DNA of 64,000 bases, taken from positions 109,259-173,258 of the forward strand of contig NZ_LMPM01000001.1 of NCBI RefSeq assembly GCF_001423845.1. The letters run 5' to 3'. The DNA is from Sphingomonas sp. Leaf357. Lineage in GTDB: Bacteria; Pseudomonadota; Alphaproteobacteria; Sphingomonadales; Sphingomonadaceae. This document shows positions 31,667-55,758 of the stretch, piece by piece. The notes beneath the pieces were generated by a model. That model was not told where the DNA came from, ran no database searches, and was given only the letters and a program-made list of their open reading frames with translations. A program made the position numbers and the translations under genes. How positions within the stretch are numbered: position 1 is the stretch's first letter; every line of letters starts with the position of its first letter.

Positions 31667-31670
31667 TATC

Positions 31671-37533: not shown

Positions 37534-37557
37534 CGGCAGCCTCGTCTCGTTCGCGGA

Positions 37558-38424
37558 TCAGTCGTCGTGCCGCAGCCCGGCGAGTTGCAACGCGCCATCC
37601 AGCGCATCGCCCCGCGGCGCGACCAGACGCGCGGTGGTGCGCTGGCGCAGCCACGGGCCGAGGCGAGGCGCGAGGCCGCCGGTCAGGGCGCAGGCGGGGG
37701 CACCGCGTTCGAAGATGGTTTCGACGAACCGTTCGACATGTTGCGCGGCGTCCTCGACGATCGAACGCGCGAGGGCATCGCCGGCTTCGGCATGGTCCAT
37801 CACGATCGGAGCCAACGCGGCATAATCGCGCGGGGTGGCGCGATCCATCCACGCGATCGCGCGCGGAATCGCATGTTCGAACCGGTCGGCGATCGCGATG
37901 CTGAGCGGCGTGCGCTCCGACCGGCCATCCAGCCCGCGCAGGGCATGGCGCATCGCCGAGAGCCCCAGAGCCGCGCCGCTGCCCTCGTCCGAGATCGGGA
38001 AGCCGTAGCCGCCGATCGCAAAATCCGCGCCGCCGACGCGCAGTTGCGCGATGCTGCCGGTGCCGAGGATCAGGATCGCGCCGTCGGCACCGCGATGCGC
38101 GCCGAGATTGGCGATCTCCGCATCGGTGGCCCAGACCACCGATGCGAACGGAAACGGAAGACCGGCCAGCGCATCGCGCACGCCGGGCCGCGAGATGCCG
38201 GCGATGCCGATGCCGACATGCACCTGCCCCAGCGCGGCCTCGTCCAGCCCGGCGGCCTTCAGCGCCTCGCCGATCGCGATATCGAGCACCGCGCGCAACG
38301 CCTCGACGCCGATCCGGGCATTGGCGGGGCCGGTAGCACCCGTGCCGATCACCCGCCCGGCGGCATCGACGATCCGGGCGCGACAATGGCTGCCGCCCGC
38401 ATCGATGCCGAGATAATAGCTCAT
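37558..38424 (-). CDS. BadF/BcrA-type amino-sugar kinase (GlcNAc/MurNAc kinase-like)
   Basis: The protein has 288 residues with an actin-like ATPase fold. The phosphate-1 loop is YLGIDAGGSHCRARIVD, phosphate-2 ILILGTGSIAQL, and further IGGYGFPISDEGSGAALGL and ACALTGGLAPRL. This is the BadF/BadG/BcrA/BcrD family, which includes eukaryotic-type GlcNAc kinase and the clostridial MurK that phosphorylates both MurNAc and GlcNAc at O-6. Because murQ is downstream and no anhydroMurNAc kinase (AnmK) is in view, a MurK-like role is the best inference. The start at 38424 has GGAG nine bases upstream. Confidence 0.85.
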   Translation of the reverse strand: MSYYLGIDAGGSHCRARIVDAAGRVIGTGATGPANARIGVEALRAVLDIAIGEALKAAGLDEAALGQVHVGIGIAGISRPGVRDALAGLPFPFASVVWATDAEIANLGAHRGADGAILILGTGSIAQLRVGGADFAIGGYGFPISDEGSGAALGLSAMRHALRGLDGRSERTPLSIAIADRFEHAIPRAIAWMDRATPRDYAALAPIVMDHAEAGDALARSIVEDAAQHVERFVETIFERGAPACALTGGLAPRLGPWLRQRTTARLVAPRGDALDGALQLAGLRHDD

Positions 38425-38598
38425 CCGGTGTCTCCTGCGCGAACACCATGCCCCGCACCGGTGCACCTTAACGGATTTGGGCCACCGCGTGATGACGCAA
38501 TGCCATATCGAATCGACCGCCAGCCATAACCGGGGGTGATCGAACGGTTGACTGGCGGGCGCGATCGACGGACGCTCCGCGCGTTTCGGGGAGAGAAG

Positions 38599-40131: not shown

Positions 40132-41153
40132 TCGAGCGCATCGCAGACGCCGCCTTCCGGCCGGCCGCCGATTCTGTCGCACAGGGGCGGATTCCCGGAG
40201 CGGTGCTGGGCATCGTCACCGCCGATGGCACGCAGGCGGTGCGGGTCGCGGGGCTGGCGCAGAAGGTGCCGGTGCCGGAAATTCTGACGACGGAGCATTG
40301 GTTCGACCTCGCCTCGGTCAGCAAGGTGATCGCGACGAACAGCTTCGTGCTGCGGCTGGCGGAGGAGGGGCGGATCGATCTCGACCGGCCGCTGACCGAT
40401 GCGATCCCCGATCTGCGCCAGTACGACGTCATGGGCGCGCCCGAGCGGCGGCTGACGTTCCGCGATTGCCTGGTGCACCGCACCTTTTTGCCGGCGGTCG
40501 AGCCGATCTACACTTATGGCGACGATCCCGCGCGGTTGCGCGCGTTCGTGCTGCAACGCGCCTGGAAACACGGCCCGGCGGTCTATTCCGACATCAACTT
40601 CATCCTGCTGGGAATCGCGGTGGAACGGCTGACCGGCGCAGGGCTCGACGCGCTGCCGCTGGGGCCGGGCCTGAGCTTCGGCCCGCCGCCGGGGCCGGCG
40701 GTGGCGACGGAATTTTGTCAGTGGCGCGGGCGCGTGCTGAACGGCGAGGTGCATGACGAGAATTGCGCGGCGATGGGCGGGCGGACCGGCCATGCCGGCC
40801 TGTTCGGCACGGTGGACGGCGTGCTGGGATTTGCCCGCGGGTTGCTCGACGGCAGCGGCGCGTCTCCTGCGATGCTGGACGCGATCCGTACCCCGGTGGA
40901 GGGGCATCGCACCGCCGGATGGGAGATCCGCTTTCCCGGCTGGTCGGGCGGGCAGGCCTGTTCGCCCGGCACGATCGGGCATACCGGGTTCACCGGCACG
41001 GGGCTGTGGGTCGATTTCGATCGCGGCGTGGCGTGGACTTTGCTGACCAATCGGGTGCATCCGACACGGCATTTCGACAGCGGGATGTTCGATCTGCGGC
41101 CGGCGACGGGGGATGCGCTGGTCGGAGCCTGGGATGCTTGGTTGGCGGGGTGA
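40128..41153 (+). CDS. Beta-lactamase-fold serine hydrolase coupled to ampG
   Basis: The protein has 341 residues. SxxK is SVSK in WFDLASVSKVIATNSF, the tyrosine motif is YSDIN in GPAVYSDINFILLGIAVE, and the third motif is HTG in GTIGHTGFTGTGLWVDF. There is no signal peptide, so it should be cytoplasmic. Translational coupling to ampG (ATGA, 40128-40131) suggests a job on imported muropeptides. Bacillus AmiE, a beta-lactamase-fold enzyme encoded beside murQ, removes the peptide from MurNAc-peptides; an analogous amidase is my inference here. Plain esterase or D-aminopeptidase activity is the alternative. Confidence 0.85.
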   Translation: MIERIADAAFRPAADSVAQGRIPGAVLGIVTADGTQAVRVAGLAQKVPVPEILTTEHWFDLASVSKVIATNSFVLRLAEEGRIDLDRPLTDAIPDLRQYDVMGAPERRLTFRDCLVHRTFLPAVEPIYTYGDDPARLRAFVLQRAWKHGPAVYSDINFILLGIAVERLTGAGLDALPLGPGLSFGPPPGPAVATEFCQWRGRVLNGEVHDENCAAMGGRTGHAGLFGTVDGVLGFARGLLDGSGASPAMLDAIRTPVEGHRTAGWEIRFPGWSGGQACSPGTIGHTGFTGTGLWVDFDRGVAWTLLTNRVHPTRHFDSGMFDLRPATGDALVGAWDAWLAG

Positions 41154-41650: not shown

Positions 41651-43072
41651 TCAATTCGCCGCCGCGATCGCGAGCAGCGCCTTGTCCACCGCCGCCGTCG
41701 CCGAAGTGTCGCCGGGCATGTCGTTGGCGAGCGCCGAGAAGGTGAGCGTGCGGCCGCTGGCGGCGATCATGAAGCCGGAGACCGCGTTGCTGGCGTTGAG
41801 CGTGCCGGTCTTGGCGAACAGCTTGCCGTCGAGCGCGGTGCCGCGGAAGCGCCCGGCGAGCGTGCCGTCCACGCCGCCGACCGGCAGCGTCGCGCGCCAT
41901 GCCGCGCCCCAGGGCTGGGTCTGCGTCCAGCGCAGGAAGCGCACCGCCGCACGCGGGGTGATGCGGTTGTAGCTCGACATGCCGGAGCCATCGGCGAAAT
42001 CGTAGCTCCAGCGATCGACCCCGGCGCGGTCGAGCATCGCGCGCACGGCCATCTGCCCGTCCGCGACCGACCCCGACCCGGCGACCGCGCCGACGCGGCG
42101 CAAGAACAGTTCGGCGTGCAGATTCTGGCTGATCTTGTTGGTGTGGTGAAGATCGTCGGCGAGCGGCGGCGGCGCGAGGCGGGCGAGGACCGGCTGTCCG
42201 GGCGGGCGCGGCGCGGGTGCGGTGCCGCGCTGGGCCGGATCGTCCGAGGGCGAACCGGGGCGGTGGCGGACGAGGATGCGGCCGGTGACACGCACGCCCA
42301 AAGTGCGGAGTTGCGCGGCCAGCCGCCAGGCGGCGCGGTGGGCGGGATCGTCCACGCCGGGCAACAAAGTGACCGGCTTGCCCGGCGGGATCGTGCCGGA
42401 GACGCGCAACAGATCGCTGCCGGGTTCGCGCGTGACGGACATCGCCGCTTTCGTGCCCCCGGTCGTGGCGCGATTGTCGATGCGGTAATAACCGTCGCCG
42501 GCGATCGTCGGCGCGGCACCCGCCGCGCCCGGGGCTACCGTGACCGTCGCGACATTGTCGTCGATCGTCAGCGCCGAGATCGCGGTGCCGTAGCGCCCGG
42601 CCATGTTGTTCCAGCTCATGCCAGCCGGCCAGCGTTCGTCGGGAAAAGCGCTGTCGTCGCCGACCACGTCGTGGACGATGCGGGTGCGCGCCGCCACCGC
42701 GCGAGCGAGATCGGACAGGCAATCGGTGGCGCAATCGGCGGCGCTCGACAGGCGCGCGTCGCCGTGGCCAGCCAGCACCACGTCCCGCCCCTCGAGCCGC
42801 ACGGTCGCGCCCCCGCCGCCGTCCGGCGCGGCGGTATCGAGCGAGGCGAAGGCGGCGGCGGTGGTGAACATCTTGGTGTTCGATGCGGGCACGAAGCGGT
42901 CGTCGGGGCGGATCGCGACGATCTCGTCACCCTGATCGTCGGCCACGACCAGCCCGATGCGCGTGCCGGGGCCGGCGCTGGCCAGGGCGGCCTCGACCGC
43001 CGGATCGGCCGGGCCGGCGGCGGTGAGGACGATTGCGACGACGGCGACGGCGGGGGCGAGCAGGATGCGCAT
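41651..43072 (-). CDS. dacB: D-alanyl-D-alanine carboxypeptidase/endopeptidase, PBP4
   Basis: DacB trims the terminal D-Ala or cuts cross-links of peptidoglycan in the periplasm. It has 473 residues with a signal peptide (MRILLAPAVAVVAIVLTAAG). Class C penicillin-binding motifs: SNTK in FVPASNTKMFTTAAAF, SQN in NKISQNLHAELFLRRVG, and KTG in LFAKTGTLNASNAVSGF. The inserted domains between motifs 1 and 2 are the PBP4 type. Its ATG overlaps the LysR stop by one base, so it is the last gene of the D-glutamate-related string. Confidence 0.94.
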   Translation of the reverse strand: MRILLAPAVAVVAIVLTAAGPADPAVEAALASAGPGTRIGLVVADDQGDEIVAIRPDDRFVPASNTKMFTTAAAFASLDTAAPDGGGGATVRLEGRDVVLAGHGDARLSSAADCATDCLSDLARAVAARTRIVHDVVGDDSAFPDERWPAGMSWNNMAGRYGTAISALTIDDNVATVTVAPGAAGAAPTIAGDGYYRIDNRATTGGTKAAMSVTREPGSDLLRVSGTIPPGKPVTLLPGVDDPAHRAAWRLAAQLRTLGVRVTGRILVRHRPGSPSDDPAQRGTAPAPRPPGQPVLARLAPPPLADDLHHTNKISQNLHAELFLRRVGAVAGSGSVADGQMAVRAMLDRAGVDRWSYDFADGSGMSSYNRITPRAAVRFLRWTQTQPWGAAWRATLPVGGVDGTLAGRFRGTALDGKLFAKTGTLNASNAVSGFMIAASGRTLTFSALANDMPGDTSATAAVDKALLAIAAAN

Positions 43073-43956
43073 CACGGAGCCTCGATGACGTCGCCGAGGA
43101 CGGCGAGAAATTCGCTGGCCAGTGCGCTCGGCGGGCGATCCAGCAGGTGGATCGCGTGCAGGTCGAACGCCAGTGGGGGTTTCAGCGAGCGCATCGCCAG
43201 TCCCGGCGACATCCACGCCTCGGCGGTGAAGCTGTCGACCACCGTCAGGCCGACGCCGGCGCGGACGAGGGCGGCGGCGATGTAGAAGGTGCGCGCCGAG
43301 ACGACTTCGTTCAGATCGAGCGCGAGGCGTTCGAGTTCGGTCGAAAACAATTGCCCGATCGGGCCGCTGGCGGCGAGCGTGATGAACGGGTGACCGGCAA
43401 GCTGCGTCAGTTCGACGCGCGGCGGGGCGTCCGGCATGTCCTCGTCGCGATAGAGCACGACCAGTTCGCCCTCGCCGAGCCAGATCTGGCCGAGCGGCGC
43501 GCCGCGCGGCACCTCGGCGGCGATCGCGATATCCGTCTCGCGTTCGTAGAGCTTGCGCAGCAGATCGTCGTGATGGACGGTCTGCAGATCGAAACGCACG
43601 TCGGGATGGGTCTTCAGGAAGCGCGACACGGCGACCGGCAGCGCGCCGAGCGCGAGGCTGGGCAGGGCCGAGATGCGCAACGTGGCGCCGGCCCCGGCGC
43701 GCAGGTTGCGCCCCGCCTCGCGCAGCGCGCGCACGCGCTCCTGGATATCGGCGACGTCGCCGAACAAGGCATGCGCGTCCTCGGTGGGCACGAGCCGGCC
43801 GTTGGTGCGCCGGAACAGTTCGAAGCCCAGCATCGTCTCGGCATGGCGCAGCGTCTTGGAGACCGAGGGCTGCGAGATGTTGAGCGCGCGGGCGGCGGCG
43901 CTGACGGAACCGTTGACATAGACGGCATGGAAAATCTCGATGTGGCGCAGGTTCAT
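43072..43956 (-). CDS. LysR-family transcriptional regulator
   Basis: The protein has 294 residues. The N-terminal winged helix-turn-helix is MNLRHIEIFHAVYVNGSVSAAARALNISQPSVSKTLRHAETMLGFELFRR, and the substrate-binding half follows from about residue 90 (LRISALPSLALGALPVAV). It lies within the operon, overlapping the symporter stop by four bases (43953-43956) and the dacB start by one, rather than divergent from it as many LysR genes are. It probably controls this operon in response to its substrate, though no LysR box can be assigned. Confidence 0.92.
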   Translation of the reverse strand: MNLRHIEIFHAVYVNGSVSAAARALNISQPSVSKTLRHAETMLGFELFRRTNGRLVPTEDAHALFGDVADIQERVRALREAGRNLRAGAGATLRISALPSLALGALPVAVSRFLKTHPDVRFDLQTVHHDDLLRKLYERETDIAIAAEVPRGAPLGQIWLGEGELVVLYRDEDMPDAPPRVELTQLAGHPFITLAASGPIGQLFSTELERLALDLNEVVSARTFYIAAALVRAGVGLTVVDSFTAEAWMSPGLAMRSLKPPLAFDLHAIHLLDRPPSALASEFLAVLGDVIEAP

Positions 43957-45203
43957 GTGCGGACGGGCCCACGGAAGCGCGCTTCGTCGAGACTGCCTTC
44001 CGAGCGGGCGACGAGCGTCGCGACGGTGAGGTTGGCCGAGGCCGAGGGCACGGTGCGAGTCATGTCGAGCAGCCGATCGAACGGCAGGACGAGGCCGACG
44101 ACCAGAGCGGTCTGTTCCGCGCCGACGCCGACCGCCGACAGCATCGCGGCGAGCATGAACAGCGAGGCCGACGGGACCGGCGCGGTGCCGAAGGCGGCGA
44201 GCGCCCCGGTCAGCAGCATGACGCCGAGCATCCACGCATCGGGGACGATGCCGAGCGCCTGAAGCGCGAACTGGCCGAGCAGGCCGACATACATCGCGGT
44301 ACCGTCCTTGCCGATGCTCGCGCCCAAAGGAAGGACGGTGGAGGCGATCGGGCGGGCAATGCCGAGATCGTCCTGCGCGACGCGCAGGGCGACAGGCAGG
44401 GTCGCGGAGGACGAGGCGGTGGAGAAGGCGACCACGAGCGCATCGACGATGCCGCGGAAGAAGCGCGACACAGGCAGGCGCGCGACGAAGGCGATCAGGC
44501 CGGCATGCACCACCAGCATCTGCACCAAAGAGGCGAGCACGACGCACAGAGCGAGCCAGCCGACATTGACGAACACCGCCATGCCGTTGCTCGCCACCGC
44601 GCCGGCGATCAGCGCGAGGACACCGAACGGAGTCGCCTCCATGACGATGCGCACGATCTGGAGCAGCACTGCCGCGCCGGATTGGAGCAAGGCGACGACC
44701 GGCTTGCCCGCTTCGCCCGAGACGACGCTGCCGATGCCGAGCAGGATCGCGACGAAGATGATCGCGAGCATGTCGCCCTTGGCCAGCGCCTCGAATATGT
44801 TGGCGGGGACGATGCCGAGCAGCTGATCCGCCGGGGCGATCGCCGGGCCGAGCGCATGCGGGGCGATGCCGGCCAAGGCGATGCCTGCGCCCGGCTGGAT
44901 CAGCAGGCCGAACGCCATGCCGATCGAGACCGCGAGCAGCGTCGTGAGCGCGAACCAGACGATCGTGCGCCCGCCGATCGACCCGAGCCGGCGCGGATCA
45001 CCGAGCGAGGAGATGCCGGCAGCGATCGTGACGAGCACGACCGGCACGACGAGCATCTTGATCAGCCGAACGAACAGGTCGCCGACCAGCTTGATCGACA
45101 GTGCCCCTTCCGGCCACACGGCCCCGAGCAGGGCGCCGAGGACGAGCCCGCCGACGACCCGCTTCCACAGCGGAATCGCGAACCAGGCCCGCAGGAGCGT
45201 CAA
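43953..45203 (-). CDS. Dicarboxylate/amino acid:cation symporter (DAACS family)
   Basis: The protein has 416 residues from a TTG at 45203, which overlaps the epimerase stop as TTGA. Family helices: PLWKRVVGGLVLGALLGAVWP, IKMLVVPVVLVTIAAGISSLGD, the serine-rich hairpin VVAFSTASSSATLPVALRVAQ, and VLPLGASIGKDGTAMYVGLLGQF with the conserved MDG-like Na+ site replaced by KDGTA. It is related to glutamate/aspartate carriers, which fits the D-Glu-handling neighbours. It is distinct from the symporter at 13348. Confidence 0.9.
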   Translation of the reverse strand: MTLLRAWFAIPLWKRVVGGLVLGALLGAVWPEGALSIKLVGDLFVRLIKMLVVPVVLVTIAAGISSLGDPRRLGSIGGRTIVWFALTTLLAVSIGMAFGLLIQPGAGIALAGIAPHALGPAIAPADQLLGIVPANIFEALAKGDMLAIIFVAILLGIGSVVSGEAGKPVVALLQSGAAVLLQIVRIVMEATPFGVLALIAGAVASNGMAVFVNVGWLALCVVLASLVQMLVVHAGLIAFVARLPVSRFFRGIVDALVVAFSTASSSATLPVALRVAQDDLGIARPIASTVLPLGASIGKDGTAMYVGLLGQFALQALGIVPDAWMLGVMLLTGALAAFGTAPVPSASLFMLAAMLSAVGVGAEQTALVVGLVLPFDRLLDMTRTVPSASANLTVATLVARSEGSLDEARFRGPVRT

Positions 45204-46192
45204 GCCGGCGTGCCCCAGAAGCCGGGTGCGGGGGGCGAGAGCATGCCACCCCGATCGATCACGCCGCCGGGGCGGTCCTCCGCCAACCACAAGGGCCCGT
45301 CGAGGTCGACGAACGCGGCTTGCCCGGCGAGCAGCATCGCGGGCGCGATCCCGAGCGACGAACAGACCATACACCCGATCATCAGCCCGAACCCCTTTCC
45401 GCGTGCTGCATCGACCAGTGCCAGGGCTTCGGTCAAGCCGCCGGTCTTGTCGAGCTTCACGTTGACGAAGTCGTAGCGGCCGACGAGCGTATCGAGATCG
45501 GCGGCGGTGTGGAGCGATTCATCCGCGCATATCGGCACATGCGAGTCGAACCCGGCGAGCGCGCCATCCTCGCCCGCCGGTAGCGGCTGTTCGAGCAGGT
45601 CGACGCGTTGCGCTACGAGGAAATCCTGCAAGCGCGCGACCTCCGCGATCGACCAGCTTTCGTTGGGATCGACGATCATGCGCGGATCGGGCGCGGCGGC
45701 GCGGACGGCGGCGATCTGCGCCTCGGCATGGTCGCGGTCGACCTTGACCTTGAGCAGCGGCACGCGCGCGACGCGAGCGGCGAGCGCGGCCATCGCATCG
45801 GGCGCGTCGATGCCGATCGTGATCGCCGAGGCGACCGGCACGGGATCGGCCAGACCGGCGAGCGCGGCGACGCTGGTGCCGCCGAGCTTCGCTTCAAGGT
45901 CCCAAAGCGCGTTGTCGATCGCGTTGCGCGCCGCGCCGGGCGGCATGATCCGCGCGAGATCATCGCGGGACAGGCCGGCTTCGACCCGTGACGCGATCCC
46001 GCCGATCGCGTCGATCGTGTCCTTGATCGTCTCGCCGTAGCGGGGATAGGGCACGCCCTCCCCTCGCCCGCTGACGTCGCCCTGCCGGAGCGTCACGGTG
46101 ACGACATCGGCGGCGGTCTTCACCCCCCGCGAAATGCGGAAGGGCGCATTCAGGCCGAACCGGTCATGGCGGGCGTCGAGATGTCGAAGCAT
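45200..46192 (-). CDS. dgcA: Dipeptide epimerase / N-acetyl-Glu racemase-type enolase-superfamily enzyme
   Basis: The protein has 330 residues of the mandelate racemase/muconate-lactonizing branch of the enolase superfamily. The catalytic Lys is in LLKVKVD (KxK); metal ligands are Asp in MIVDPNESW, Glu in LLEQPLP and Asp in ICADESL; the second catalytic Lys is in VNVKLDKTGGL. In E. coli the family epimerises L-Ala-D/L-Glu from murein. In DgcN-DgcA pathways it converts N-acetyl-D-Glu to N-acetyl-L-Glu. With DgcN directly upstream (43-base overlap) the latter is favoured, but both activities are possible. Confidence 0.88.
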   Translation of the reverse strand: MLRHLDARHDRFGLNAPFRISRGVKTAADVVTVTLRQGDVSGRGEGVPYPRYGETIKDTIDAIGGIASRVEAGLSRDDLARIMPPGAARNAIDNALWDLEAKLGGTSVAALAGLADPVPVASAITIGIDAPDAMAALAARVARVPLLKVKVDRDHAEAQIAAVRAAAPDPRMIVDPNESWSIAEVARLQDFLVAQRVDLLEQPLPAGEDGALAGFDSHVPICADESLHTAADLDTLVGRYDFVNVKLDKTGGLTEALALVDAARGKGFGLMIGCMVCSSLGIAPAMLLAGQAAFVDLDGPLWLAEDRPGGVIDRGGMLSPPAPGFWGTPA

Positions 46193-47187
46193 GTCTGCAT
46201 CCTGTCGATGATCGGATCGGCCCCGAAGCGATAGGGATCGGTGCACGGCAGATTGAGCCGATCCGCGGTCTCGGCGCAGAGCCGGAGCGCCTCGTCTTCG
46301 CCGAGCTTGATCGTGTTGAGCGCGATGCCGACCGCCTGCACGTCCGGGCTGGTCAGCCGCGCGACCGAGAGATTGGCGGCAAGGCAGGTGGCGAGATCGG
46401 GCAGTTGATAATGCGGCAGGCCGCGCATGTGCGGGCGCGACGGATCGTGGCACAGCACGATCGCCTTGGGTTGCGCGCCGTGCAGCAGGCCGGTGGAGAC
46501 ACCGGCGAAGGACGGGTGGAACAGCGACCCCTGCCCCTCGATCAGATCCCAGCCGTCGTCGTTCCGCGCCGGGGTGATCGATTCGATCGCGCCCGAGATG
46601 AAATCGGCCACCACCGCATCGAGCGGCACGCCGTCGCCCGCGATCAGGATGCCGGTCTGCCCGGTCGCGCGGAAATCGGCCGCGATGCCGCGCCGGCGCA
46701 TCGCATCGCGCAGCGCGAGCGTGGCGTACATCTTGCCGACCGAGCAATCGGTGCCGACCGTGAGCAGGCGGTTGCCGGCGCGGTACTTGCCGGTGCCGAC
46801 CGGCAGATGGGCGGGCGGATCGCGCACGTCGAACAGCGCGACGCCAGCATCGGCGGCGGCGCGGACCAAGGCAGGCACGTCGCGCAGCCGGTGGTGCAGG
46901 CCCGAGGCAACGTTCATGCCGGCCGAGATCGCGGCCAGCGCATCCTCGACCAGTGCGGGCTCCATCTGGCCGCCGGCATTGGCGATGCCCAGCACCAAAG
47001 TGCGCGCGCCCGCCGCGCGTGCCTCGGCCACGCCCATGCGCGGCAGGCCGAGCGTGAGCGGGCTATCGTCGTGGCGCCATTCGCCGACGCAATCGTCGGG
47101 CCGGAACACGGCGAGCCCGCGCGAGGTCTTGATGCCGACCGCGTCGGTGGAATGGCCGAGATAGAGCAGGAAGGGACCAGGGATCAT
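46150..47187 (-). CDS. dgcN: DUF1611 protein, DgcN-type D-glutamate N-acetyltransferase
   Basis: The protein has 345 residues. It starts MIPGPFLLYLGHSTDAVGIKTSRGLAVFRPDDCVGE, with GIANAGGQMEPALVEDALAAI, the P-loop-like LTVGTDCSVGKMYATLALRDAM and LIEGQGSLFHPSFAGVSTGLLHGAQP, all DUF1611 signatures. Family members encoded with DgcA acetylate D-glutamate in a recently described D-Glu catabolic route. Here dgcN and dgcA overlap by 43 bases in different frames and a symporter and regulator follow. An upstream in-frame start at 47250 lacks family similarity. Confidence 0.85.
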   Translation of the reverse strand: MIPGPFLLYLGHSTDAVGIKTSRGLAVFRPDDCVGEWRHDDSPLTLGLPRMGVAEARAAGARTLVLGIANAGGQMEPALVEDALAAISAGMNVASGLHHRLRDVPALVRAAADAGVALFDVRDPPAHLPVGTGKYRAGNRLLTVGTDCSVGKMYATLALRDAMRRRGIAADFRATGQTGILIAGDGVPLDAVVADFISGAIESITPARNDDGWDLIEGQGSLFHPSFAGVSTGLLHGAQPKAIVLCHDPSRPHMRGLPHYQLPDLATCLAANLSVARLTSPDVQAVGIALNTIKLGEDEALRLCAETADRLNLPCTDPYRFGADPIIDRMQTCFDISTPAMTGSA

Positions 47188-47463
47188 CGCATACCTGCGT
47201 CTAGGGAGAGGAGGAGCGAGGGATAGGATGCGGGCTCGGTATCGCGCCAATCATGCTCGGACTGCGGCCCATAACCTTGAGCTATGTCGGACTGAGCCTT
47301 TCGATCCTTCGCGGCTTCATTGCCGTCACTCCGGACTCGTTCCGGGGTCCACCGTGCAGCAAACTGCAGACCGGAGAGACTGTAGCACAGCAAATCCCGG
47401 AACAAGTCCGGGATGACAGAGAGGTCTCACAAAATCGGGCTGGTCGCAAAGAACACGCATGAC
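47188..47463. repeat. Gap with a CACTCCGGAC/CCGGGATGAC paired repeat
   Basis: The doublet spans 47324-47417, with arms GTCACTCCGGA-ctcg-TTCCGGGGTCCAC and AATCCCGGA-acaa-GTCCGGGATGAC. It lies between the deacylase stop and the dgcN start. It may weaken read-through from the acylase pair into dgcN. The rest of the gap holds nothing I can identify. Confidence 0.75.
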
Positions 47464-49068
47464 CTAGCTCGCCGGGCAGCCCGCCGGTTTGGGGCGCAGC
47501 AGCACGCGACCCGGCGCGGCGCCGGTGGACGCCCCGTTCGCCAGTGCGAGCTCGCCGTTCACGAACAGCGCCGTGACCCCGGCGCTCGGCACGCGGGGAT
47601 GGACGTAATCGGCGCGCGGCGCGTAGCGGACGGGATCGAACACGACGACATCGGCGAAATAGCCGGCGCGGAGATAGCCGCGCCGGTCGAGCTTGTAGAT
47701 ATCGGCGGTCGCCCCGGTCGAGCGGCGGACGAAGTCGCGCAGCGAGATCACCTTCCGCTGGCGCACATAGACCTGATATTTGCGCGGGAAGGTGGCGTAT
47801 TGGCGCGGATGGCCGTCCGACCCGTCCGAACTGGTGACGATCCACGGCTGCTTCATCAGCAGATCGACGTCGCGATCGGCCATGTTGAAGCTGGCGATGC
47901 CGACGCCGGCCGGTTCGGTGCCGGCGGCGTTGGGCACGCGCAGGATACGGATCGCCGCATCGACGGGATCGAGCTTCCACAAAGTCGCCATCTGGCCAAG
48001 CGTCTTGCCGGTCCAGGGCTGGCCGGCGCTGGTGAGCAGGATCGACTCCTTGCCGCCGCGACGGCGCAGGTTCTCCGCCATCTCGATCTTGAGCTTCGCC
48101 AAGGTCGCGGGATCGTCGAAGCGCGCGATCAGTTTCCTGTAGCCGCCATCGTTCGCCCAACGCGGGACGAGCGCGGCATCGACGCTGGAGCCGGACGCGA
48201 GCCAGGGATATTGATCGGCGGTGACGTCCTGCCCGGCGGCGCGGGCGGCGGCGATCGTCGCGATCAGCAACGGCGCCTGCCCCTGAAGATCGACGCCGAG
48301 CGCCTTCAGATGCGCGAAATGAACGGGCATTCTTGCCTGACGGCCGATCTCGATCGCCTCCTTCGTGCTGGCGATCAGGCCGATCGTGTAATTGGATTCG
48401 TCGCGCTGATGCGTATCGTAGATCCCGCCGCGGCTACCCGCCTCGCGCGCGACGGCGATCACCTCGTCCGTCCTGGCGAAACTTTGCGGAGCGTAGAACA
48501 GGCCGGTCGACAGGCCATACGCACCCTCGCACATGCCCTTCGCCGCCAGCGCCTGTTCGCGCGCGAGTTCGGCCGCGGTCGGCGCGCGATCGTCCTGCCC
48601 GAGCACGCGGCCACGGATCGTGCCGAAGCCGACGAACGGCACGAGGTTGGTGCCGATGCCGGCGGCGGTGAGCTTGCGCGCATCCTGCGCCACGTCCGGA
48701 GTGCCGCCACCGTCCACGCCGGTGACGATCGTCGATACGCCCTGCGCCAGCCAGGGCAGGTTGAGCCGCTGTTTCGCATCGGGCGAACGGATATAGGTAT
48801 CGGGATGGGTATGCGCGTCGATCAGGCCGGGCGCGACGATCTTGCCCGTCGCATTGACGATCCGCGCGGCGGCGGTGCGGCGGGAGGGGCCGACATAGAC
48901 GATGCGGTCGCCGGCGATCTCGACATCGCCGACGATCGGCGCGGTATCGGCACCGGTATAGATCGTTCCGCCGCGAATGACCGTGTCGATGCGCGGCGCG
49001 GCGAGCGCGGGCCCGGCACAGGCGACGACCAGAGCGGAGAGAGCGAGACGCTGGATCGACGGGGTCAT
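47464..49068 (-). CDS. N-acyl-D-amino-acid deacylase (amidohydrolase superfamily), exported
   Basis: The protein has 534 residues with a Sec signal (LALSALVVACAGPALA). Domain order is that of D-aminoacylases: IRGGTIYTGADTAP, the metal-binding LIDAHTHPDTYI, GLSTGLFYAPQSFA, YDTHQRDES with a further His, MPVHFAHLKALG, and the catalytic Asp in VTSSDGSDGHPR. Such enzymes free D-amino acids from N-acyl forms. The start overlaps the penicillin acylase stop (ATGA, 49065-49068). Being periplasmic, it would work before the cytoplasmic DgcN/DgcA steps. Confidence 0.9.
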   Translation of the reverse strand: MTPSIQRLALSALVVACAGPALAAPRIDTVIRGGTIYTGADTAPIVGDVEIAGDRIVYVGPSRRTAAARIVNATGKIVAPGLIDAHTHPDTYIRSPDAKQRLNLPWLAQGVSTIVTGVDGGGTPDVAQDARKLTAAGIGTNLVPFVGFGTIRGRVLGQDDRAPTAAELAREQALAAKGMCEGAYGLSTGLFYAPQSFARTDEVIAVAREAGSRGGIYDTHQRDESNYTIGLIASTKEAIEIGRQARMPVHFAHLKALGVDLQGQAPLLIATIAAARAAGQDVTADQYPWLASGSSVDAALVPRWANDGGYRKLIARFDDPATLAKLKIEMAENLRRRGGKESILLTSAGQPWTGKTLGQMATLWKLDPVDAAIRILRVPNAAGTEPAGVGIASFNMADRDVDLLMKQPWIVTSSDGSDGHPRQYATFPRKYQVYVRQRKVISLRDFVRRSTGATADIYKLDRRGYLRAGYFADVVVFDPVRYAPRADYVHPRVPSAGVTALFVNGELALANGASTGAAPGRVLLRPKPAGCPAS

Positions 49069-51452
49069 CGGCGGGTCTTTCCTGGTGTCAGCGTGCGGCG
49101 CGCGGCGACATGCGCATCGACCGTCGCGCGCCCGAACAGCATAGGCTGCATCCGCCCGGCGATCCACGGCGCATAGAGATCGCGGTAATGCGGCGAGCGC
49201 GGATCGTTCGACTGGCCGGGCAGGTTGAGCATCAGCGAATTGTCCCACGCGCCGACATCGATCACCTGAAGATAGCTCGCCCCACCGCTCGCCCGCCAGC
49301 TCGGGCCGTTGCTGAGCCAGCGCGCCATGACGGTGTAGGAATCGCCGCCGGTACCTTCGCCCTGGATCGCCGGGAAGGCCGCGGCGATGGCAGGAATGCT
49401 GGCCAGCGGATGCACGATGCGGACCTGATGCAGCTTGCTCCAGCGCCACGCGGCGGGATCGGGGCCGAGCAATTCGAGCGCGGAGGCCCAGGCCGAGGCG
49501 AGCGCGGCATCGAACAGCGCATCGCGCGCCGCGACCGGGTTGGGGCCGAGGCGGGCGTCGGGATGCGCGAGCAGGCCGAGCAGCACCGACGGCGCGATTT
49601 CGGTAACGAGCGACTTGGCGCGGTCCGGCACGATCGCGGCGAGCAGGCGCTTGCCGAGATCGCGCCACAGGATCTGGAACAAAGCGGCCGGCGCGCTGTC
49701 GCCGTCGATCCGACCGTCCCATTCGCGCAGCAGATCGGCGGCATTCGAGCGGCGTTTCGGTAGCAGGGCAACGAGCTGGCGCGCGGGCGTGGAGAGCGTG
49801 TCGTGCTGCAGCGCGACGCTGTCGGCCAGCGTGTGCTTGTCCTGCTTGCTTAGCACATCGACGATGCGATTGTAGCGATACGGATCGCGGAACGAGAAAG
49901 CCGGGATGCGGTCGCGGGGCCAGCCGGCGGGCAGATTGTTCTGGTTGGCGGAGGCGAACCAGCCCTTGGCCGGATTGTATTCGCTGGGCAGCGCGGCGAA
50001 ATCGCGCATGCCGGTCCAATCGTAACGGCCGTCGCCCGGCACCGGCAGCAGGCCCTCGCCCGTCTTGCGCACCGGCGCGAAGCCGATCACCTGCCAGCCG
50101 GTATTGCCGTCGATATCGGCATAATGGAAATTGGTCGGCGACGGATGCAGGCGGAACGCGGTGCGCAGCGACGCCCAGTCGTGCGCGAGGTTGATCGCGA
50201 TCATCGCGAACGCGCCCGCGCCGCCCGGCTGCATCGCGACCGAGCCCATCACGGTGGCGCGGTGCCCGGCAGGATCGTGCGAAATGACCGGGCCGTGCAC
50301 CGAATAGCGCAACGTCACGCGTCGCGGCGGCGCATCCTTGACCGGGATGTCCACCGCAACCTTCTTGAACGTCTTCCATCCGCCGTCATGCGCGTAGCGT
50401 TCGGGATCCTCGGCGTGCAGCGTGAGGACAAACAGATCCTCCTGATCAATGTGGAAATTGGTCCGGCCGAAGGCGAAGCGGTCGGTATGGCCCTGCATGA
50501 TGCCGGGCAGACCGGGCGCGCCGCCACCGATCACGTCGAGGCCGGGTGCCGAGAGATGCGCGACGTGGCGCGGGCCGAACCCGCCGATGCCGAGATGCGG
50601 ATCGTTGGCGAGGATCGCCCGGCCGGTGGCGCTACGCGACGGCGCGATCGTCCAGGCGTTGCTGCCGGCATTGGCGCGCTCGGTGGCGATGTCGGCGGGA
50701 TCGACCGTCGGGGTGCCGGGGCCGAACGGCAGGCCGCCCAGCCGCATCACGCCGAAATCGGCCTCCGACACCTTGGAGACGTCCAGCCCCGGCGGGACCG
50801 CCATCGGCCATGGGGGGCTGAGCGGTGCCACGACCGCATCGAGATCGAGCAAACCGAGCGCGGCGAGCTGCGCGCGGCGGATCTCGTCATCGACATTGCC
50901 GATCGATCCGCCGCGCGCGAGGACGAGATCGCGCACGTCCCACTTCATCGGCGCGACGCCGAGGATGGTATATTCGAGCGGCAGCAGCGTGCGGTCGGCG
51001 GCGACTTCGTCTATCCGCGCATTGATGCCGGCGACATAGGCGCGCGCGCAGGCCAGCACGTCAGCGGGAATCCCGCGCAGTTCGGCGGCGAGATCGCCGC
51101 GATAGTGGAACAGCCGCGCGGTGGCATCGAATTTCGCGAAATCGGCACCGAACGCCTCCGCCATCAGCCCCATCTCGCGGCGGTGCGCGAAATCGATCTG
51201 GAACAGCCGGTCGCGCGCAACGACATAACCCTGGCCGAAGAACGCATCGGGAATCGATGCGGCGCGGATGTGCGGCACGCCGTAGACGTCGTCGACGATC
51301 TCGATTGGGGCGTGCAATCCGTGTATGGGCATGGCCGATATGTCCCGGGCGCTATCGGGGCTGGGCGCGCAGGCACTGGCGGAGAACCCCCAAGTCAATG
51401 CCAGCGTGGCGGCGGAGCCGTGCAGGAACACTCGACGGTCGATCATCGGCAT
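49065..51452 (-). CDS. Penicillin acylase-family Ntn hydrolase, exported
   Basis: The protein has 795 residues. The N-terminus MPMIDRRVFLHGSAATLAL has a twin-arginine motif (DRRVFLHG) and ends SASAC, so Tat export and perhaps lipid attachment are likely. The alpha-chain starts with VDDVYGVPHIRA and FGQGYVVARDRLFQID. The autocatalytic beta-chain Ser lies in NAGSNAWTIAPSRSATGRAILANDPHLG. YSVHGPVI and ANQNNLPAGWPRD follow, and a late Asn-containing segment completes the family pattern. Such enzymes hydrolyse N-acyl amides, including acyl-homoserine lactones and beta-lactam side chains. First gene of the string; a start at 51446 is also possible. Confidence 0.9.
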   Translation of the reverse strand: MPMIDRRVFLHGSAATLALTWGFSASACAPSPDSARDISAMPIHGLHAPIEIVDDVYGVPHIRAASIPDAFFGQGYVVARDRLFQIDFAHRREMGLMAEAFGADFAKFDATARLFHYRGDLAAELRGIPADVLACARAYVAGINARIDEVAADRTLLPLEYTILGVAPMKWDVRDLVLARGGSIGNVDDEIRRAQLAALGLLDLDAVVAPLSPPWPMAVPPGLDVSKVSEADFGVMRLGGLPFGPGTPTVDPADIATERANAGSNAWTIAPSRSATGRAILANDPHLGIGGFGPRHVAHLSAPGLDVIGGGAPGLPGIMQGHTDRFAFGRTNFHIDQEDLFVLTLHAEDPERYAHDGGWKTFKKVAVDIPVKDAPPRRVTLRYSVHGPVISHDPAGHRATVMGSVAMQPGGAGAFAMIAINLAHDWASLRTAFRLHPSPTNFHYADIDGNTGWQVIGFAPVRKTGEGLLPVPGDGRYDWTGMRDFAALPSEYNPAKGWFASANQNNLPAGWPRDRIPAFSFRDPYRYNRIVDVLSKQDKHTLADSVALQHDTLSTPARQLVALLPKRRSNAADLLREWDGRIDGDSAPAALFQILWRDLGKRLLAAIVPDRAKSLVTEIAPSVLLGLLAHPDARLGPNPVAARDALFDAALASAWASALELLGPDPAAWRWSKLHQVRIVHPLASIPAIAAAFPAIQGEGTGGDSYTVMARWLSNGPSWRASGGASYLQVIDVGAWDNSLMLNLPGQSNDPRSPHYRDLYAPWIAGRMQPMLFGRATVDAHVAARRTLTPGKTRR

Positions 51453-51774
51453 GGTTCCGCTATCGTGAAGTCCGAACAAGCAGGCTAGTCTTACGCCAGC
51501 GGTTCCGACGTATGACAAGCACTGCGCAGACCATAAGCGATGTTTATGGCAGGTCTCCCCATAATCCAACGCTATAGGTCTATCACGTGAGGAATGGCGA
51601 TCGGGCCTTGACGCTCGCGGTCGCCCACGCGCAGGTTCGCCGTTCCGACACGATCTGCGTCGCGGCCCGGGTGCGCGGGCCGGGCGACCGATCGGCGGAC
51701 TGCCGCGGGAGGCAGCGGGACTCGACCGGCGATCATGGCCGGTGCGAAGACGAGTTGGATTTTAGGGGGCTTAT
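51453..51774. promoter_or_regulatory. Divergent intergenic region between the acylase operon and the TonB-dependent receptor
   Basis: This 322-base gap must contain the promoters of both divergent units. A long leader for the receptor gene is likely. The repeat-like CTGCC-gcggga-GGCAG hairpin (about 51700-51716) and GC-rich stems near 51660-51690 are visible. I cannot assign -35/-10 boxes, a riboswitch or a LysR site with confidence. The receptor ATG has no strong Shine-Dalgarno; the nearest is TTAGGGGGC. Confidence 0.4.
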
Positions 51775-54768
51775 ATGACGACTTCAGGTCAATTCCGGCG
51801 GCACCGTTCGATGCTGGCGAGCTTTTCGAGCCTGGCGACCTTGATCGTCGCGGCCGGCATCGCCGCACCCGTCGCCGCGCAGACCGCCGATACGCCGGCC
51901 GCCGAGACGACGGAAACGCCCAGCGCGGACGACATCGTCGTCACCGGCACGCGCGTGGTGCGCGACGGCTTCCAGTCGCCGACGCCGCTGACCGTCGTGA
52001 CGCGCGAGGAGATCCTGAACTCGTCGCCGTCGAACAACATCGCCGATTTCGTCAACCAGCTGCCATCGGTCGCCGGCTCGACCCGCCCCGCCAACTCGCG
52101 CCTCAACCTGTCGAGCGGCCAGGCCGGCATCAACACGATCAACCTGCGCAACCTCGGCGACAATCGCACGCTGATCCTGCTCGACGGCCGCCGCTCGGTC
52201 GGTTCGACGATCACCGGCCTGGTCGACGTCAACACCATTCCCCAGCAATTGGTGAAGAGCATCGAGGTGGTCACCGGCGGCGCCTCCGCCGCCTATGGGT
52301 CGGACGCGGTAGCCGGCGTCGTCAACTTCGTGCTCGACAAGAAATATACCGGGCTGAAGGGTGCGATCGACAGCGGCATCACCGACAAGGGCGACGGCCG
52401 CAACTATTCGGTCAGCCTGGCCGGCGGCCTGGCGTTCGGCAGCGAGAATCGCGGACATATCCTGCTCTCCGGCGAAGTCGCGCACCGCGACGGCATCTTT
52501 CAGGTCGATCGCGACTGGAACGCGACCGGCTATGTCCGCATCCAGGACCCAAACTGGACGGCCACCAGCACCACCCCGCAATTCCTGATCCGGCGTCAGG
52601 TCGGCGCGGCGAATTCCACGCCGGGCGGCCTGATCACCGGCAACAGCGTTCTCGCCGGTAGCGGCCTGACGGCGAACAATCTGCGCGGCATCTATTTCGG
52701 GCAGAGCGGCGCGCTCAACCAGTTTCAATACGGCGCGCTGACCTTCCCCTCCCCTACCGGCACCGCGGCGCCGACGCTGACGCAGGGCGGATCGTGGCAG
52801 GTGAACGATTCCGGCCGGCGGATCGGCCTGGATCCGAAAGACGACCGCTACGGTGTCTTCGGCCGGCTGAGCTACGAAGTCGCCGACGGCATCGAAATCT
52901 TCGCGGAAGGCGCGTACAACCAGCAGAAGATCTTCTTCAACGCCGGCCCCAACCTGGCGACCGGCATCGTCTATCAGCGCGACAACGCGTTCCTGATCAA
53001 CGCGCTCGGTGCGAGCCGCCTGACCGGGATCAACACCGTGACGGTGGCGACGACCGCCGCCGACCTGCCATTCCGTGCGATCGACAATCGGCGCAAGGTG
53101 CAGCGTTACTCGATCGGCGCGGAGGGCGTCAGCGAACTGTTCGGCAAGCGCGCGACCTGGAACATCTATGCGCAATATGGCCGCGCCGACCTGCGCGAGC
53201 AGCTGCGCAACGTGATGAACATCACGCGCATGAACAACGCCACCGACGCGGTATTCGCCGCGGCGGGCAATCCGGGCAATTATGCGGCCGGTTCGATCCA
53301 GTGCCGCGTCAATGTCGACGCAGTCACCACCAACGACGACGCCGCCTGCGTGCCGCTCAATCGTCTGGGCATCAGCGTCGCCAATCCGGCGGCGATCGCC
53401 TATGTGCTGGGCAATCCGTATCGCGACGAAGTGACCGAACAATACAACGCCGCGGCGAACCTTTCGGTCACACCCTTCTCCACCTGGGCCGGCGATGTCA
53501 GCGTGGCCTTTGGCGGTGAATATCGCGAGGAAAAGATCCGTGGCTTCGTGCCGGCCGAGTTCCAGCCGACCGTGACCACGACGGCGACGACGAACCGCTG
53601 GTCGGTCGGCAATTACCTGCCCACCAACGGCAAGTACAACGTGAAGGAAGCCTATCTCGAGACCGTCGTTCCGCTGGGTCTGGGCATCGAGCTCAACGGT
53701 GCGGGGCGTGCGACCTGGTATTCGACCGCGGGTTACGTCACGACCTGGAAAGCCGGCGCGACCTGGCAGCCGATCCCCGACATCCGCTTCCGCGTGACGC
53801 GATCGCGCGACATCCGTGCCCCCAATCTGAACGAGCTGTATCAGGCCGGATCGGCCAACAGCGATTCGGTCCGCAACCCCGCCTACACCAGCGACGGGCT
53901 TAACGGTCCGGCGACCTTCGGCTATTCCGCCACGGTGACCGGCAATCTGAATCTGCTGCCTGAAAAAGCGGATCAGTGGAACATCGGCGCGGTGCTGTCG
54001 CCCCGCTTCCTGCGCGGCTTCAACCTGTCGGTCGATTATTACCGCATCAACCTGAAGAGCGGTATCAGCACGCTCGATGCACAGACCATCCTGAATCTGT
54101 GCTATCAGGGCGACCAGACGTACTGCGCCGCTTACACGCAGGATCCGTCCCGCTCCGCGCCCGGCCAGCCCTATCTGCTGTTCCGCAACCAGCCGTTCAA
54201 CGCCGCCAGCCAGCTCACGCGAGGTGTCGACATCGATGCGTCCTATCGCTTCCCGCTGGACGCGATTTTCGCCAAGGCCGGGGGCAATTTCACGCTGCGC
54301 GGCGTGGCGACGCGCTATATCGAGAACCTGTTCAACAGCGGCATTCCGAACACGGTGGTGCTCAACACGGTCGGCGTGAATGGTGGACAGGGGTCGACGC
54401 CCAAGTGGATCTACCGCGTCAACGCGACTTACGACACGGACCATTTCTCGATCACCGCGACCGGGCGCGGCGTCAGCGCGGGCAAATACGTCGCCAACGG
54501 CATCGAATGCCAGACCGGCTGCCCGCTCTCGACCACCCTCTTCCCGACCTATGACAACAATCACGTCTCCGGGCTGTTCTACGCCGATCTCAATCTCACG
54601 ACGAAGATCCGAGCCGGCGGGGCCGATGCTCAGCTGTTCTTCAACGTGACCAACCTGTTCGATCGCTGGCCGTTGCTGGTGCCAGAAACCGGTCTGGCGG
54701 CGAACTCGACCTATTCGGATCTGCTCGGCCGCCAGTTCCGCATCGGGGTCCGCTTCCAGACTCGATAG
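51775..54768 (+). CDS. TonB-dependent outer-membrane receptor
   Basis: The protein has 997 residues. A signal peptide (LASFSSLATLIVAAGIAAPVAAQ) is followed by the TonB-box-like DDIVVTGTRVV and the plug domain: TPLTVVTREEILNSSPSNNIADFVNQLPSV, NLRNLGDNRTLILLDGRRSVGSTITG and VVTGGASAAYGSDAVAGVVNFVLDKKYTG. The C-terminal beta-barrel ends RQFRIGVRFQTR with no final aromatic residue. The ligand cannot be read from sequence. Position opposite a D-amino-acid acylase operon suggests peptides or acylated amino acids rather than iron. Confidence 0.93.
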   Translation: MTTSGQFRRHRSMLASFSSLATLIVAAGIAAPVAAQTADTPAAETTETPSADDIVVTGTRVVRDGFQSPTPLTVVTREEILNSSPSNNIADFVNQLPSVAGSTRPANSRLNLSSGQAGINTINLRNLGDNRTLILLDGRRSVGSTITGLVDVNTIPQQLVKSIEVVTGGASAAYGSDAVAGVVNFVLDKKYTGLKGAIDSGITDKGDGRNYSVSLAGGLAFGSENRGHILLSGEVAHRDGIFQVDRDWNATGYVRIQDPNWTATSTTPQFLIRRQVGAANSTPGGLITGNSVLAGSGLTANNLRGIYFGQSGALNQFQYGALTFPSPTGTAAPTLTQGGSWQVNDSGRRIGLDPKDDRYGVFGRLSYEVADGIEIFAEGAYNQQKIFFNAGPNLATGIVYQRDNAFLINALGASRLTGINTVTVATTAADLPFRAIDNRRKVQRYSIGAEGVSELFGKRATWNIYAQYGRADLREQLRNVMNITRMNNATDAVFAAAGNPGNYAAGSIQCRVNVDAVTTNDDAACVPLNRLGISVANPAAIAYVLGNPYRDEVTEQYNAAANLSVTPFSTWAGDVSVAFGGEYREEKIRGFVPAEFQPTVTTTATTNRWSVGNYLPTNGKYNVKEAYLETVVPLGLGIELNGAGRATWYSTAGYVTTWKAGATWQPIPDIRFRVTRSRDIRAPNLNELYQAGSANSDSVRNPAYTSDGLNGPATFGYSATVTGNLNLLPEKADQWNIGAVLSPRFLRGFNLSVDYYRINLKSGISTLDAQTILNLCYQGDQTYCAAYTQDPSRSAPGQPYLLFRNQPFNAASQLTRGVDIDASYRFPLDAIFAKAGGNFTLRGVATRYIENLFNSGIPNTVVLNTVGVNGGQGSTPKWIYRVNATYDTDHFSITATGRGVSAGKYVANGIECQTGCPLSTTLFPTYDNNHVSGLFYADLNLTTKIRAGGADAQLFFNVTNLFDRWPLLVPETGLAANSTYSDLLGRQFRIGVRFQTR

Positions 54769-54816: not shown

Positions 54817-55596
54817 TCAGACGATCAACTTGCCGCCGACGATCGCGAGCGTCGCGGCGAGCACAGTGCGCAGGATCCGCTCCGGGATGCGCGTCGAGAC
54901 CAGGCTGCCGAGGATGATCCCCGGCACCGAGCCGATCAGCAGCGAGACGAGCAGCGCCGGATCGACCGAGCCCATCGCCCAATGCCCGGCACCGGCGACG
55001 AAGGTCAGCGGCACGGCATGCGCGATGTCCGATCCGACGAGGCGCACGGTCGGCAGGCGCGGATAGAGGATCAGCAAGGCGGTCATCCCCAGCGCGCCCG
55101 CGCCGACCGACGACAGCGACACCAGCACGCCAAGCGCCGCCCCGAGCAATATCGTCAGACGCGCGATACGCCGGTCCGACACCCGGTCGAGCGAGTGGCC
55201 GAAACGGGCGATGATGCGATTGCGGAACAGCATCGCGATCGCGGTGGCGATCAGCGCGAGGCCGAGCGTGATCGTGATCAGCCGCTCCGTGCCCTCGAAA
55301 TGCGTGCCGGCAAAATGCAGCGAGACCAAGGTGACGAGAGTCGCCGGCACGCTGCCCAGCGCCATCCGGCGCACGATCTTCCAGTCGATCGAGCCGCCGA
55401 TGCCGTGCACGACCGTGCCGACGCTCTTGGTCGCCGAGGCATACAGCAGATCGGTGCCGACCGCGGTCACCGGGTGAAAGCCGAACAGCAATACGAGCAG
55501 CGGCGTCATCAGCGATCCGCCGCCCACCCCGGTCATCCCGACCAGCAGGCCGACCGCGAACCCGGCCAGCGAATAGAGCAGATCGACGCCGATCAT
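54817..55596 (-). CDS. TauE/SafE-family sulfite/organosulfonate exporter
   Basis: The protein has 259 residues and about eight helices. It starts MIGVDLLYSLAGFAVGLLVGMTGVGGGSLMTPLLVLLFGFHPVTAVGTDLLYASATKSVGT, the standard family N-terminus, and repeats a related motif in its second half (LSSVGAGALGMTALLILYPRL with GSDIAHAVPLTFVAGAGH). The family exports sulfite, sulfonates or related anions. No sulfur metabolism gene is adjacent, so the substrate stays open. Confidence 0.92.
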   Translation of the reverse strand: MIGVDLLYSLAGFAVGLLVGMTGVGGGSLMTPLLVLLFGFHPVTAVGTDLLYASATKSVGTVVHGIGGSIDWKIVRRMALGSVPATLVTLVSLHFAGTHFEGTERLITITLGLALIATAIAMLFRNRIIARFGHSLDRVSDRRIARLTILLGAALGVLVSLSSVGAGALGMTALLILYPRLPTVRLVGSDIAHAVPLTFVAGAGHWAMGSVDPALLVSLLIGSVPGIILGSLVSTRIPERILRTVLAATLAIVGGKLIV

Positions 55597-55758
55597 ACCG
55601 ATCGAGTTACGCCAGCGCGGGTCGAAATCGCGATCTTGCGGAGGATGGGAGACCTGTCGTTCATACGCCCTCCTCGCCCATGGTCGAATCGTACGCCGAG
55701 CGTGACGGATGCGCGGTGACGGCGCGAGGTAGATTTTCTGCCCCCCGACGAGGCCCAG

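Follow-up and report, generated by a model that had tools for sequence, protein, structure and literature searches.

Does the D-glutamate (D-Glu) pathway encoded by dgcN and dgcA stand alone in this sphingomonad, or is it one branch of a larger system, and what would such a system feed on? The window, i.e., the whole stretch of 64,000 nucleotides that was analyzed (C1:109259-173258 of a 3.87-Mb genome; the closest named matches come from Sphingomonas), carries the two genes in a compact run whose members are listed first.

Gene content and junctions of the locus

The core set consists of eight genes and two palindromes, with functions named after the protein families.

41651-43072, minus strand: dacB, encoding PBP4, a predicted DD-peptidase (TIGR00666, 183.6 bits; cut-off, 107.8)
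43072-43956, minus strand: LysR-family regulator (PF00126 and PF03466)
43953-45203, minus strand: DAACS dicarboxylate/amino acid symporter (PF00375)
45200-46192, minus strand: dgcA, predicted N-acetyl-D-Glu racemase (NF042940, 437.9 bits; cut-off, 400)
46150-47187, minus strand: dgcN, predicted D-Glu N-acetyltransferase, DUF1611 (NF041892, 508.8 bits; cut-off, 480)
47270-47286, no strand: CATA-N9-TATG palindrome upstream of dgcN, candidate LysR-type operator
47464-49068, minus strand: exported Amidohydro_3 protein, D-aminoacylase-like, with Asp for Cys (PF07969)
49065-51452, minus strand: Tat-exported hydrolase of the penicillin acylase family (S45) (PF01804, 581 bits; cut-off, 21.3)
51532-51548, no strand: CATA-N9-TATG palindrome in the acylase/receptor intergenic region
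51775-54768, plus strand: TonB-dependent outer membrane receptor (PF07715 and PF00593)

As the original prediction had it, the receptor gene faces the minus-strand genes, and the assignments of DgcN and DgcA to their families hold, both proteins exceeding the curated cut-offs; the D-Glu N-acetyltransferase activity of DgcN is presumed from its family. In the whole genome, dgcN is the only DUF1611 match. The seven minus-strand genes had also been described as joined throughout by overlaps. Genes, families, and five of the six junctions, read from the sequence, were exactly as described: ATGA at 49065-49068 (acylase/amidohydrolase), 43 bases (dgcN/dgcA), TTGA at 45200-45203 (dgcA/DAACS symporter), ATGA at 43953-43956 (DAACS symporter/LysR), and 1 base (LysR/dacB). 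The sixth is a gap of 276 bases (47188-47463) between the end of the amidohydrolase gene at 47464 and the ATG of dgcN at 47187, which contains two REP-like palindromes (47331 and 47397) and the operator-like palindrome at 47270-47286. Because of this gap with its operator-like palindrome, dgcN probably starts its own transcript; a scan for sigma-70 promoters and terminators gave no signal above shuffles. Other REP-like palindromes lie at 16770, 34305, and 34384.

The core set had been interpreted as a co-ordinated gene set for D-Glu. Its conservation and a shared operator-like site, described below, agree with this, but the view was incomplete in that the recycling families adjoining the set at 34481-41153 had been missed.

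34481-35860, plus strand: MltA-type lytic transglycosylase, flanking (PF03562 and a 3D domain)
35840-36724, minus strand: MurQ-like MurNAc-6-phosphate etherase (subfamily NF003915, 322.6 bits, cut-off 168; equivalog TIGR00274, 234.6 bits, cut-off 302)
36739-37533, minus strand: PP2C-like protein (PF13672), between murQ and the kinase gene, found in 0 of 49 related loci
37558-38424, minus strand: NagK/MurK-like sugar kinase of the BadF/NagK type (PF01869)
38536-40131, plus strand: AmpG-family muropeptide permease (TIGR00901, 324.7 bits, just under the cut-off of 350)
40128-41153, plus strand: serH, PF00144 hydrolase, AmiE/PBP4B-like, without an evident signal peptide

All of these except the PP2C-like protein belong to peptidoglycan-turnover families, and serH overlaps ampG. 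Both AmpG equivalog models also score below their cut-offs, and the permease is named as AmpG-family only. The kinase reaches 226.8 bits with the model for NagK of the SO3507 type (NF046058), under the cut-off of 370. In alignments read by eye, its catalytic position carries Thr-Asp, like that of MurK, and Gly replaces Glu/His; the MurNAc/GlcNAc kinase of PDB entry 8zo3 has Asn there. The accessible part of one study gives small residues around the lactyl group and a Thr before the catalytic Asp as the criteria for MurK (PMC10465942).

The combined gene content is best explained, with a probability of roughly 0.6, by an island for the salvage of peptidoglycan fragments in which DgcN and DgcA form a regulated D-Glu branch.

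Three further features lie around the locus. At 30435-34229 on the plus strand, a VirJ-like protein (PF06057) precedes an MprF-type phosphatidylglycerol lysyltransferase (PF09924), a pair that presumably resembles lpiA/acvB. The gene at 27006-30410 on the same strand combines GH18, polysaccharide deacetylase, and family-2 glycosyltransferase domains in one long product. Past the receptor, at 54817-56916 on the minus strand, are a TauE-family protein and a PRK08912-type aminotransferase, found in one and none of the 49 related loci, respectively.

Conservation of the dgcN neighborhood and a shared palindrome

In a genus sample of 101 genomes drawn by the search tool, DgcN was found in 54 and scored over the cut-off in 42. 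All same-genus over-cut-off dgcN loci except the window's own, 49 in number, were compared at flanks of about 9.5 kb (L126, L147, and L163 being short) with 40 control regions placed at round coordinates in eight of the genomes; a neighbor was accepted at a tblastn E value of ≤1e-10, at least 35% identity, and at least 30% coverage. Near dgcN we found dgcA in 47 of the 49 loci, LysR in 39, the amidohydrolase in 37, DAACS in 36, PBP4 in 30, the receptor in 21, the acylase in 16, serH in 12, and ampG in 10. Each gene matched in none or one of the 40 controls (PBP4, 0/40). The grouping of dgcN with its neighbors is not due to chance, and the expectation, set as a check in advance, that conservation would extend beyond dgcN-dgcA is borne out both here and in the comparison of 46 sphingomonadalean with 34 other loci given below. 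The counts for ampG and serH are underestimates because the two genes lie 5 to 9 kb from dgcN, at the limit of the flanks. The kinase (7/49) and murQ (2/49), each with either of two probes, and MltA (0/49) were seldom or never found near dgcN, and the low kinase and murQ counts weigh against the salvage reading, though at flanks of only about 9.5 kb.

The single control matches for ampG and serH both fall in L181, a region spanning the real serH locus of genome G091, and the one for the acylase in L195. Region L189 (genome G026) accounts for those of LysR, the amidohydrolase, and DAACS, which match there together at 46 to 51% without dgcN; it is perhaps a related cluster. In another genome (G083:C1:625885-626852), the dgcN match is split into two pieces in different frames, and this dgcN is possibly broken.

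Eighty named loci, which are the best dgcN matches and no random sample, were divided by taxon according to their record titles. Specifically, the 46 sphingomonadalean loci (counting L053, titled Arthrobacter) and the 34 others contain PBP4 in 29 and 0 cases, respectively, the acylase in 22 and 0, serH in 23 and 0, ampG in 21 and 0, the receptor in 22 and 6, DAACS in 36 and 8, the amidohydrolase in 41 and 9, LysR in 42 and 15, and dgcA in 45 and 29. The opposite trend is displayed by gamma-glutamyltranspeptidase (1 and 10) and the sodium/glutamate symporter GltS (0 and 10); the non-sphingomonad neighborhoods featuring one or the other (10 of 34 each) include L071, L072, L075, L084, L088, and L097. 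Two main gene orders occur among the named loci. One is that of the window; the other runs amidohydrolase (minus strand), LysR, dgcN, dgcA, DAACS, ampG, serH, dacB, and acylase (minus strand), as in the Sphingopyxis-type loci L056, L059, L063, and L100; the receptor comes next if the locus extends far enough (L063).

Upstream regions of 280 bases, thinned at 80% ungapped identity (so that phylogeny remains), were searched for dyads and compared with shuffles within 20-base blocks. CATA-N9-TATG was the top dyad upstream of dgcN (exact in 37 of 110 regions, the maximum for any dyad in 20 shuffles being 13), of the acylase (21/39; shuffle maximum, 7), and of the receptor (18/49; shuffle maximum, 8), the latter two sets sharing one intergenic region. 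The window contains exactly two copies, at 47270 and 51532; none of 100 shuffles contained two or more. Six sites are present in the whole genome, including these two (12 rows of the search, each site being found on both strands), compared with seven for a reversed control pattern, and control DNA holds seven exact copies in 796 kb. Six per genome is a chance number; only the placement is telling, with two sites upstream of conserved members. As judged by eye from translations, none of the remaining four genome sites adjoins a related gene.

Upstream of the other genes, the exact palindrome is rare (LysR, 1/72; DAACS, 1/66; amidohydrolase, 1/75) or missing (ampG, 0/41; serH, 0/39; dacB, 0/57; dgcA, 0/73); with one mismatch allowed, it precedes dacB in 15 of 57 cases. 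The dgcN unit and the acylase/receptor pair are probably co-regulated through one kind of site, and since no exact copy precedes ampG or serH, these two probably stand outside the regulon in this gene order. LysR boxes have the form T-N11-A, and CATA-N9-TATG fits this palindromic form of a candidate LysR-type operator. With up to one mismatch, the motif is present in 56 of 75 cases with and 20 of 35 without a LysR gene, a weak association (p = 0.08), and at several gammaproteobacterial loci with the motif the nearest LysR match reaches only 31 to 36%. That the local LysR protein binds the palindrome is a guess.

The same distribution of sites would suit a different substrate. The regulated branch could use natural products that are N-acylated or contain D-Glu (lipopeptides, N-acyl-D-amino acids, or poly-gamma-D-Glu) and not the wall: the receptor would import them, the Tat-exported acylase would strip the acyl chain, the amidohydrolase would free D-Glu, and the AmpG genes would form a separate recycling unit. 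The palindrome is indeed common to dgcN, acylase, and receptor and absent from ampG and serH; several loci without ampG in range keep the receptor and two amidohydrolases beside dgcN (e.g., L116, L119, and L123); and the known enzymes of the acylase family act on N-acyl amides. PBP4, however, fits poorly with such a diet, being found in 30 of 49 loci and no control and overlapping LysR in the window, and in the Sphingopyxis-type loci ampG, serH, and dacB follow dgcN, dgcA, and the symporter on the same strand. We regard this alternative as unlikely, though it is the strongest of those considered, and retain the salvage of peptidoglycan fragments as the preferred reading.

Co-occurrence of serH and dgcN and copies of the set elsewhere

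serH (E ≤ 1e-60) and over-cut-off dgcN are each found in 42 of the 101 genus genomes and occur together in 33 (Fisher p = 1.5e-10, uncorrected for kinship). Nine of the 42 dgcN genomes have no serH and nine of the 42 serH genomes no over-cut-off dgcN, which counts against the salvage reading. ampG lies directly upstream of serH in all 20 serH loci fetched, out of 42 found, and PBP4, DAACS, or the amidohydrolase is near several serH genes even in dgcN-less genomes (L214, L223, L224, and L228).

Most of the island set recurs within 24 kb on plasmid p-A-Sy of Sphingobium yanoikuyae. There, genes for a BadF-type kinase, D-lactate dehydrogenase (dld), NagA, a SIS-domain protein (nagB-like, to judge by its position), MurQ, GntR, a permease 64% identical to the window's AmpG, and serH are accompanied by a second serine hydrolase, dacB, acylase, receptor, amidohydrolase, LysR, dgcN, dgcA, and symporter, and a tyrosine recombinase is encoded just past the set. 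MurQ yields GlcNAc-6-P and D-lactate, and nagA and the D-lactate dehydrogenase gene beside murQ therefore make catabolic sense. On this plasmid, one-mismatch sites of the palindrome precede dgcN and dacB and another lies within dld, whereas the search found none in the acylase/receptor interval, a pattern that weighs against the main reading.

Outside the sphingomonads, serH is located beside anmK in Mariluticola, where dgcA and genes for a dipeptide ABC transporter accompany it, and in Rhizobium lusitanum, where nagK and murQ matches do so. The plasmid neighbors of serH in Deinococcus deserti show no link of this kind. Distant serH relatives (27 to 33% identity) are fused to NamZ (Burkholderia and Cupriavidus) or to a GH3 domain (Bacteroides). 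dgcN homologs of about 56% identity occur on plasmids of Klebsiella, Enterobacter, and Pantoea, 28 of 100 matching records being typed as conjugative.

Could the D-Glu operon and the wall-recycling genes merely adjoin in sphingomonads, their linkage reflecting shared ancestry and no shared pathway? Many of the loci are related, neighbors can be co-inherited, and several genomes, G010, G042, and G091 among them, have ampG/serH apart from dgcN. Against this, membership is kept despite rearranged gene order, serH and dgcN are found together even in genomes where they are not linked (kinship uncorrected), and the association recurs on the Sphingobium plasmid and, with other transporters, in Mariluticola. 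We consider mere adjacency distinctly improbable and the salvage island the better explanation.

The enzymes and a proposed route for wall-derived D-glutamate

Some genomes are represented among both named and unnamed loci, and the 122 dgcA rows and 98 amidohydrolase rows correspond to 113 and 89 distinct sequences, respectively. DgcA has the DxD motif (D296 and D298) in 122 of 122 rows and 113 of 113 distinct sequences, a motif that marks L-Ala-D/L-Glu epimerases. The least likely of the alternatives, and one to which we give little weight, is that DgcA is mainly such a dipeptide epimerase, with the epimerized wall dipeptide cut by ordinary peptidases and another role for DgcN: besides the invariant DxD, the second-best PDB match (280 bits) is 1jpd, a structure of the E. 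coli epimerase, but the epimerase model NF011708 gives 315.9 bits, under its own cut-off of 343, whereas the DgcA model exceeds its cut-off and 47 of 49 loci have dgcA next to dgcN.

The exported amidohydrolase had been called a D-aminoacylase. It shares with D-aminoacylase and N-acyl-D-Glu deacylase (PDB 1rjp and 3gip) the sequence family, both metal His residues, the HxH pair, and the catalytic Asp; it differs from them in having Asp for the Cys metal ligand. Asp119 occupies the subtype V Cys position in 98 of 98 rows, and His86, His88, His220, His253, and the catalytic Asp415 are invariant in all 89 distinct sequences. Subtype V is defined by a Cys/His/His metal site, according to the accessible part of PMC12017989. 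With the defining Cys ligand replaced by Asp in 89 of 89 distinct sequences, the assignment as a true D-aminoacylase had to be given up. The acylase has Gly266-Ser267-Asn268 in 38 of 38 distinct sequences, and we take this Ser to be the catalytic Ser of penicillin amidase S45. A Tat-like motif is present in 35 of 37 distinct acylase orthologs, the rows without it having N termini shortened by start choice. For PBP4, the SxTK, SxN, and K[TS]G patterns are found in 60 of 66 distinct orthologs; the other six lack SxTK.

We presume that the products of amiE and yfeW belong to PF00144, and the window would then resemble their clusters in that a PF00144 hydrolase travels with murQ and sugar uptake. 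It differs from the B. subtilis and E. coli mur clusters in that serH has no evident signal peptide, pairs with an AmpG-family permease, and scores 77.1 bits with the AmiE/PBP4B model NF002968, under the cut-off of 385. The clusters in question, murQRP-amiE-nagZ and murQP-yfeW, respectively, are mur operons in which amiE and yfeW sit, as given in the accessible part of PMC5061867. A role for SerH as a substitute for AmpD was also considered; an Amidase_2 (AmpD-type) domain is present in 101 of 101 genomes, so that such a substitute is not needed, and the family resemblance alone is retained. This distribution also counts against the need for an AmiE-like role of SerH. A link to microcystin degradation, with SerH and AmpG as relatives of MlrB and MlrD, was also considered and dropped, as no paper on it was found.

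Elsewhere, the window's genome has matches to NagA, GH3 (NagZ-like), S66 (LdcA-like), and Amidase_2, with a TGA within the S66-matched stretch. AnmK has no match in this genome, which counts against the salvage reading, as MltA would yield anhydro-MurNAc. The Mpl cut-off was reached in none of the 101 genus genomes and in one of 14 control genomes; therefore, reuse of the intact stem peptide is improbable, which would leave its D-Glu to be catabolized. To our knowledge, no gene of the island encodes an enzyme that cuts the gamma-D-Glu-mDAP bond, a further point against salvage.

D-glutamate catabolism by DgcN-DgcA was reportedly described by Yu et al. (2023, ISME J). The window resembles that pathway in its two adjacent genes with products over curated cut-offs and differs from the pathway alone by the addition of PBP4, acylase, receptor, exported amidohydrolase, and AmpG/MurQ-family genes. 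DgcN and DgcA are named in the accessible parts of PMC10845958 and PMC12363236 and once each in PMC11747546; a literature search, outside of which the founding DgcN paper (Yu et al. 2023) fell, found nothing on DgcN combined with AmpG or an acylase. Muropeptide recycling by AmpG-NagZ-AmpD-LdcA-MurQ-NagA is covered for E. coli and Caulobacter in the accessible parts of PMC11980594 and PMC13046382; MurQ, LdcA, and Mpl are reportedly missing from Caulobacter. The window has the AmpG-family permease, MurQ-like etherase, and NagK-like kinase in common with this system, to which the rest of its genome adds the GH3, NagA, Amidase_2, and S66 matches, and differs from it in the missing AnmK match, the absence of over-cut-off Mpl from the 101 genomes, and its explicit D-Glu branch.

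The salvage reading takes each enzymatic step from the protein families and builds on the observed gene set, its conservation, its co-occurrence, and the shared palindrome. Wall peptides would be trimmed in the periplasm by receptor, exported acylase, exported amidohydrolase, and PBP4, with guesses as to what the acylase and the receptor act on, and the DAACS carrier would import D-Glu (or L-Glu). DgcN would acetylate D-Glu, and DgcA would racemize the resulting N-acetyl-D-Glu, giving N-acetyl-L-Glu. Through the CATA-N9-TATG sites, a LysR-type regulator would jointly switch the dgcN unit and the acylase/receptor pair. In parallel, the AmpG-family permease would import muropeptides, which the cytosolic AmiE/PBP4B-like hydrolase SerH would cut, and the NagK/MurK-like kinase and MurQ would process the sugar. 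A bolder version, speculative and rather doubtful, is that sphingomonads possess a dedicated LysR-switched system, sometimes plasmid-borne, for feeding on the walls of other bacteria, in which the acylase-fold enzyme would be a new peptidoglycan-peptide amidase and the Asp-variant amidohydrolase a periplasmic L-Ala-D-Glu dipeptidase freeing D-Glu for DgcN-DgcA.

Studies of recycling in alphaproteobacteria have left the fate of the stem peptide open; for Caulobacter, its degradation to amino acids is called only plausible in the accessible part of PMC11980594. A unit of AmpG-family permease, PBP4, and DgcN-DgcA would give wall-derived D-Glu a defined route to central metabolism and would suggest why the costly acetylate-then-racemize pathway is retained. 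It would also supply a testable regulon, two hydrolases for substrate discovery, and a mobile "wall-eating" island.
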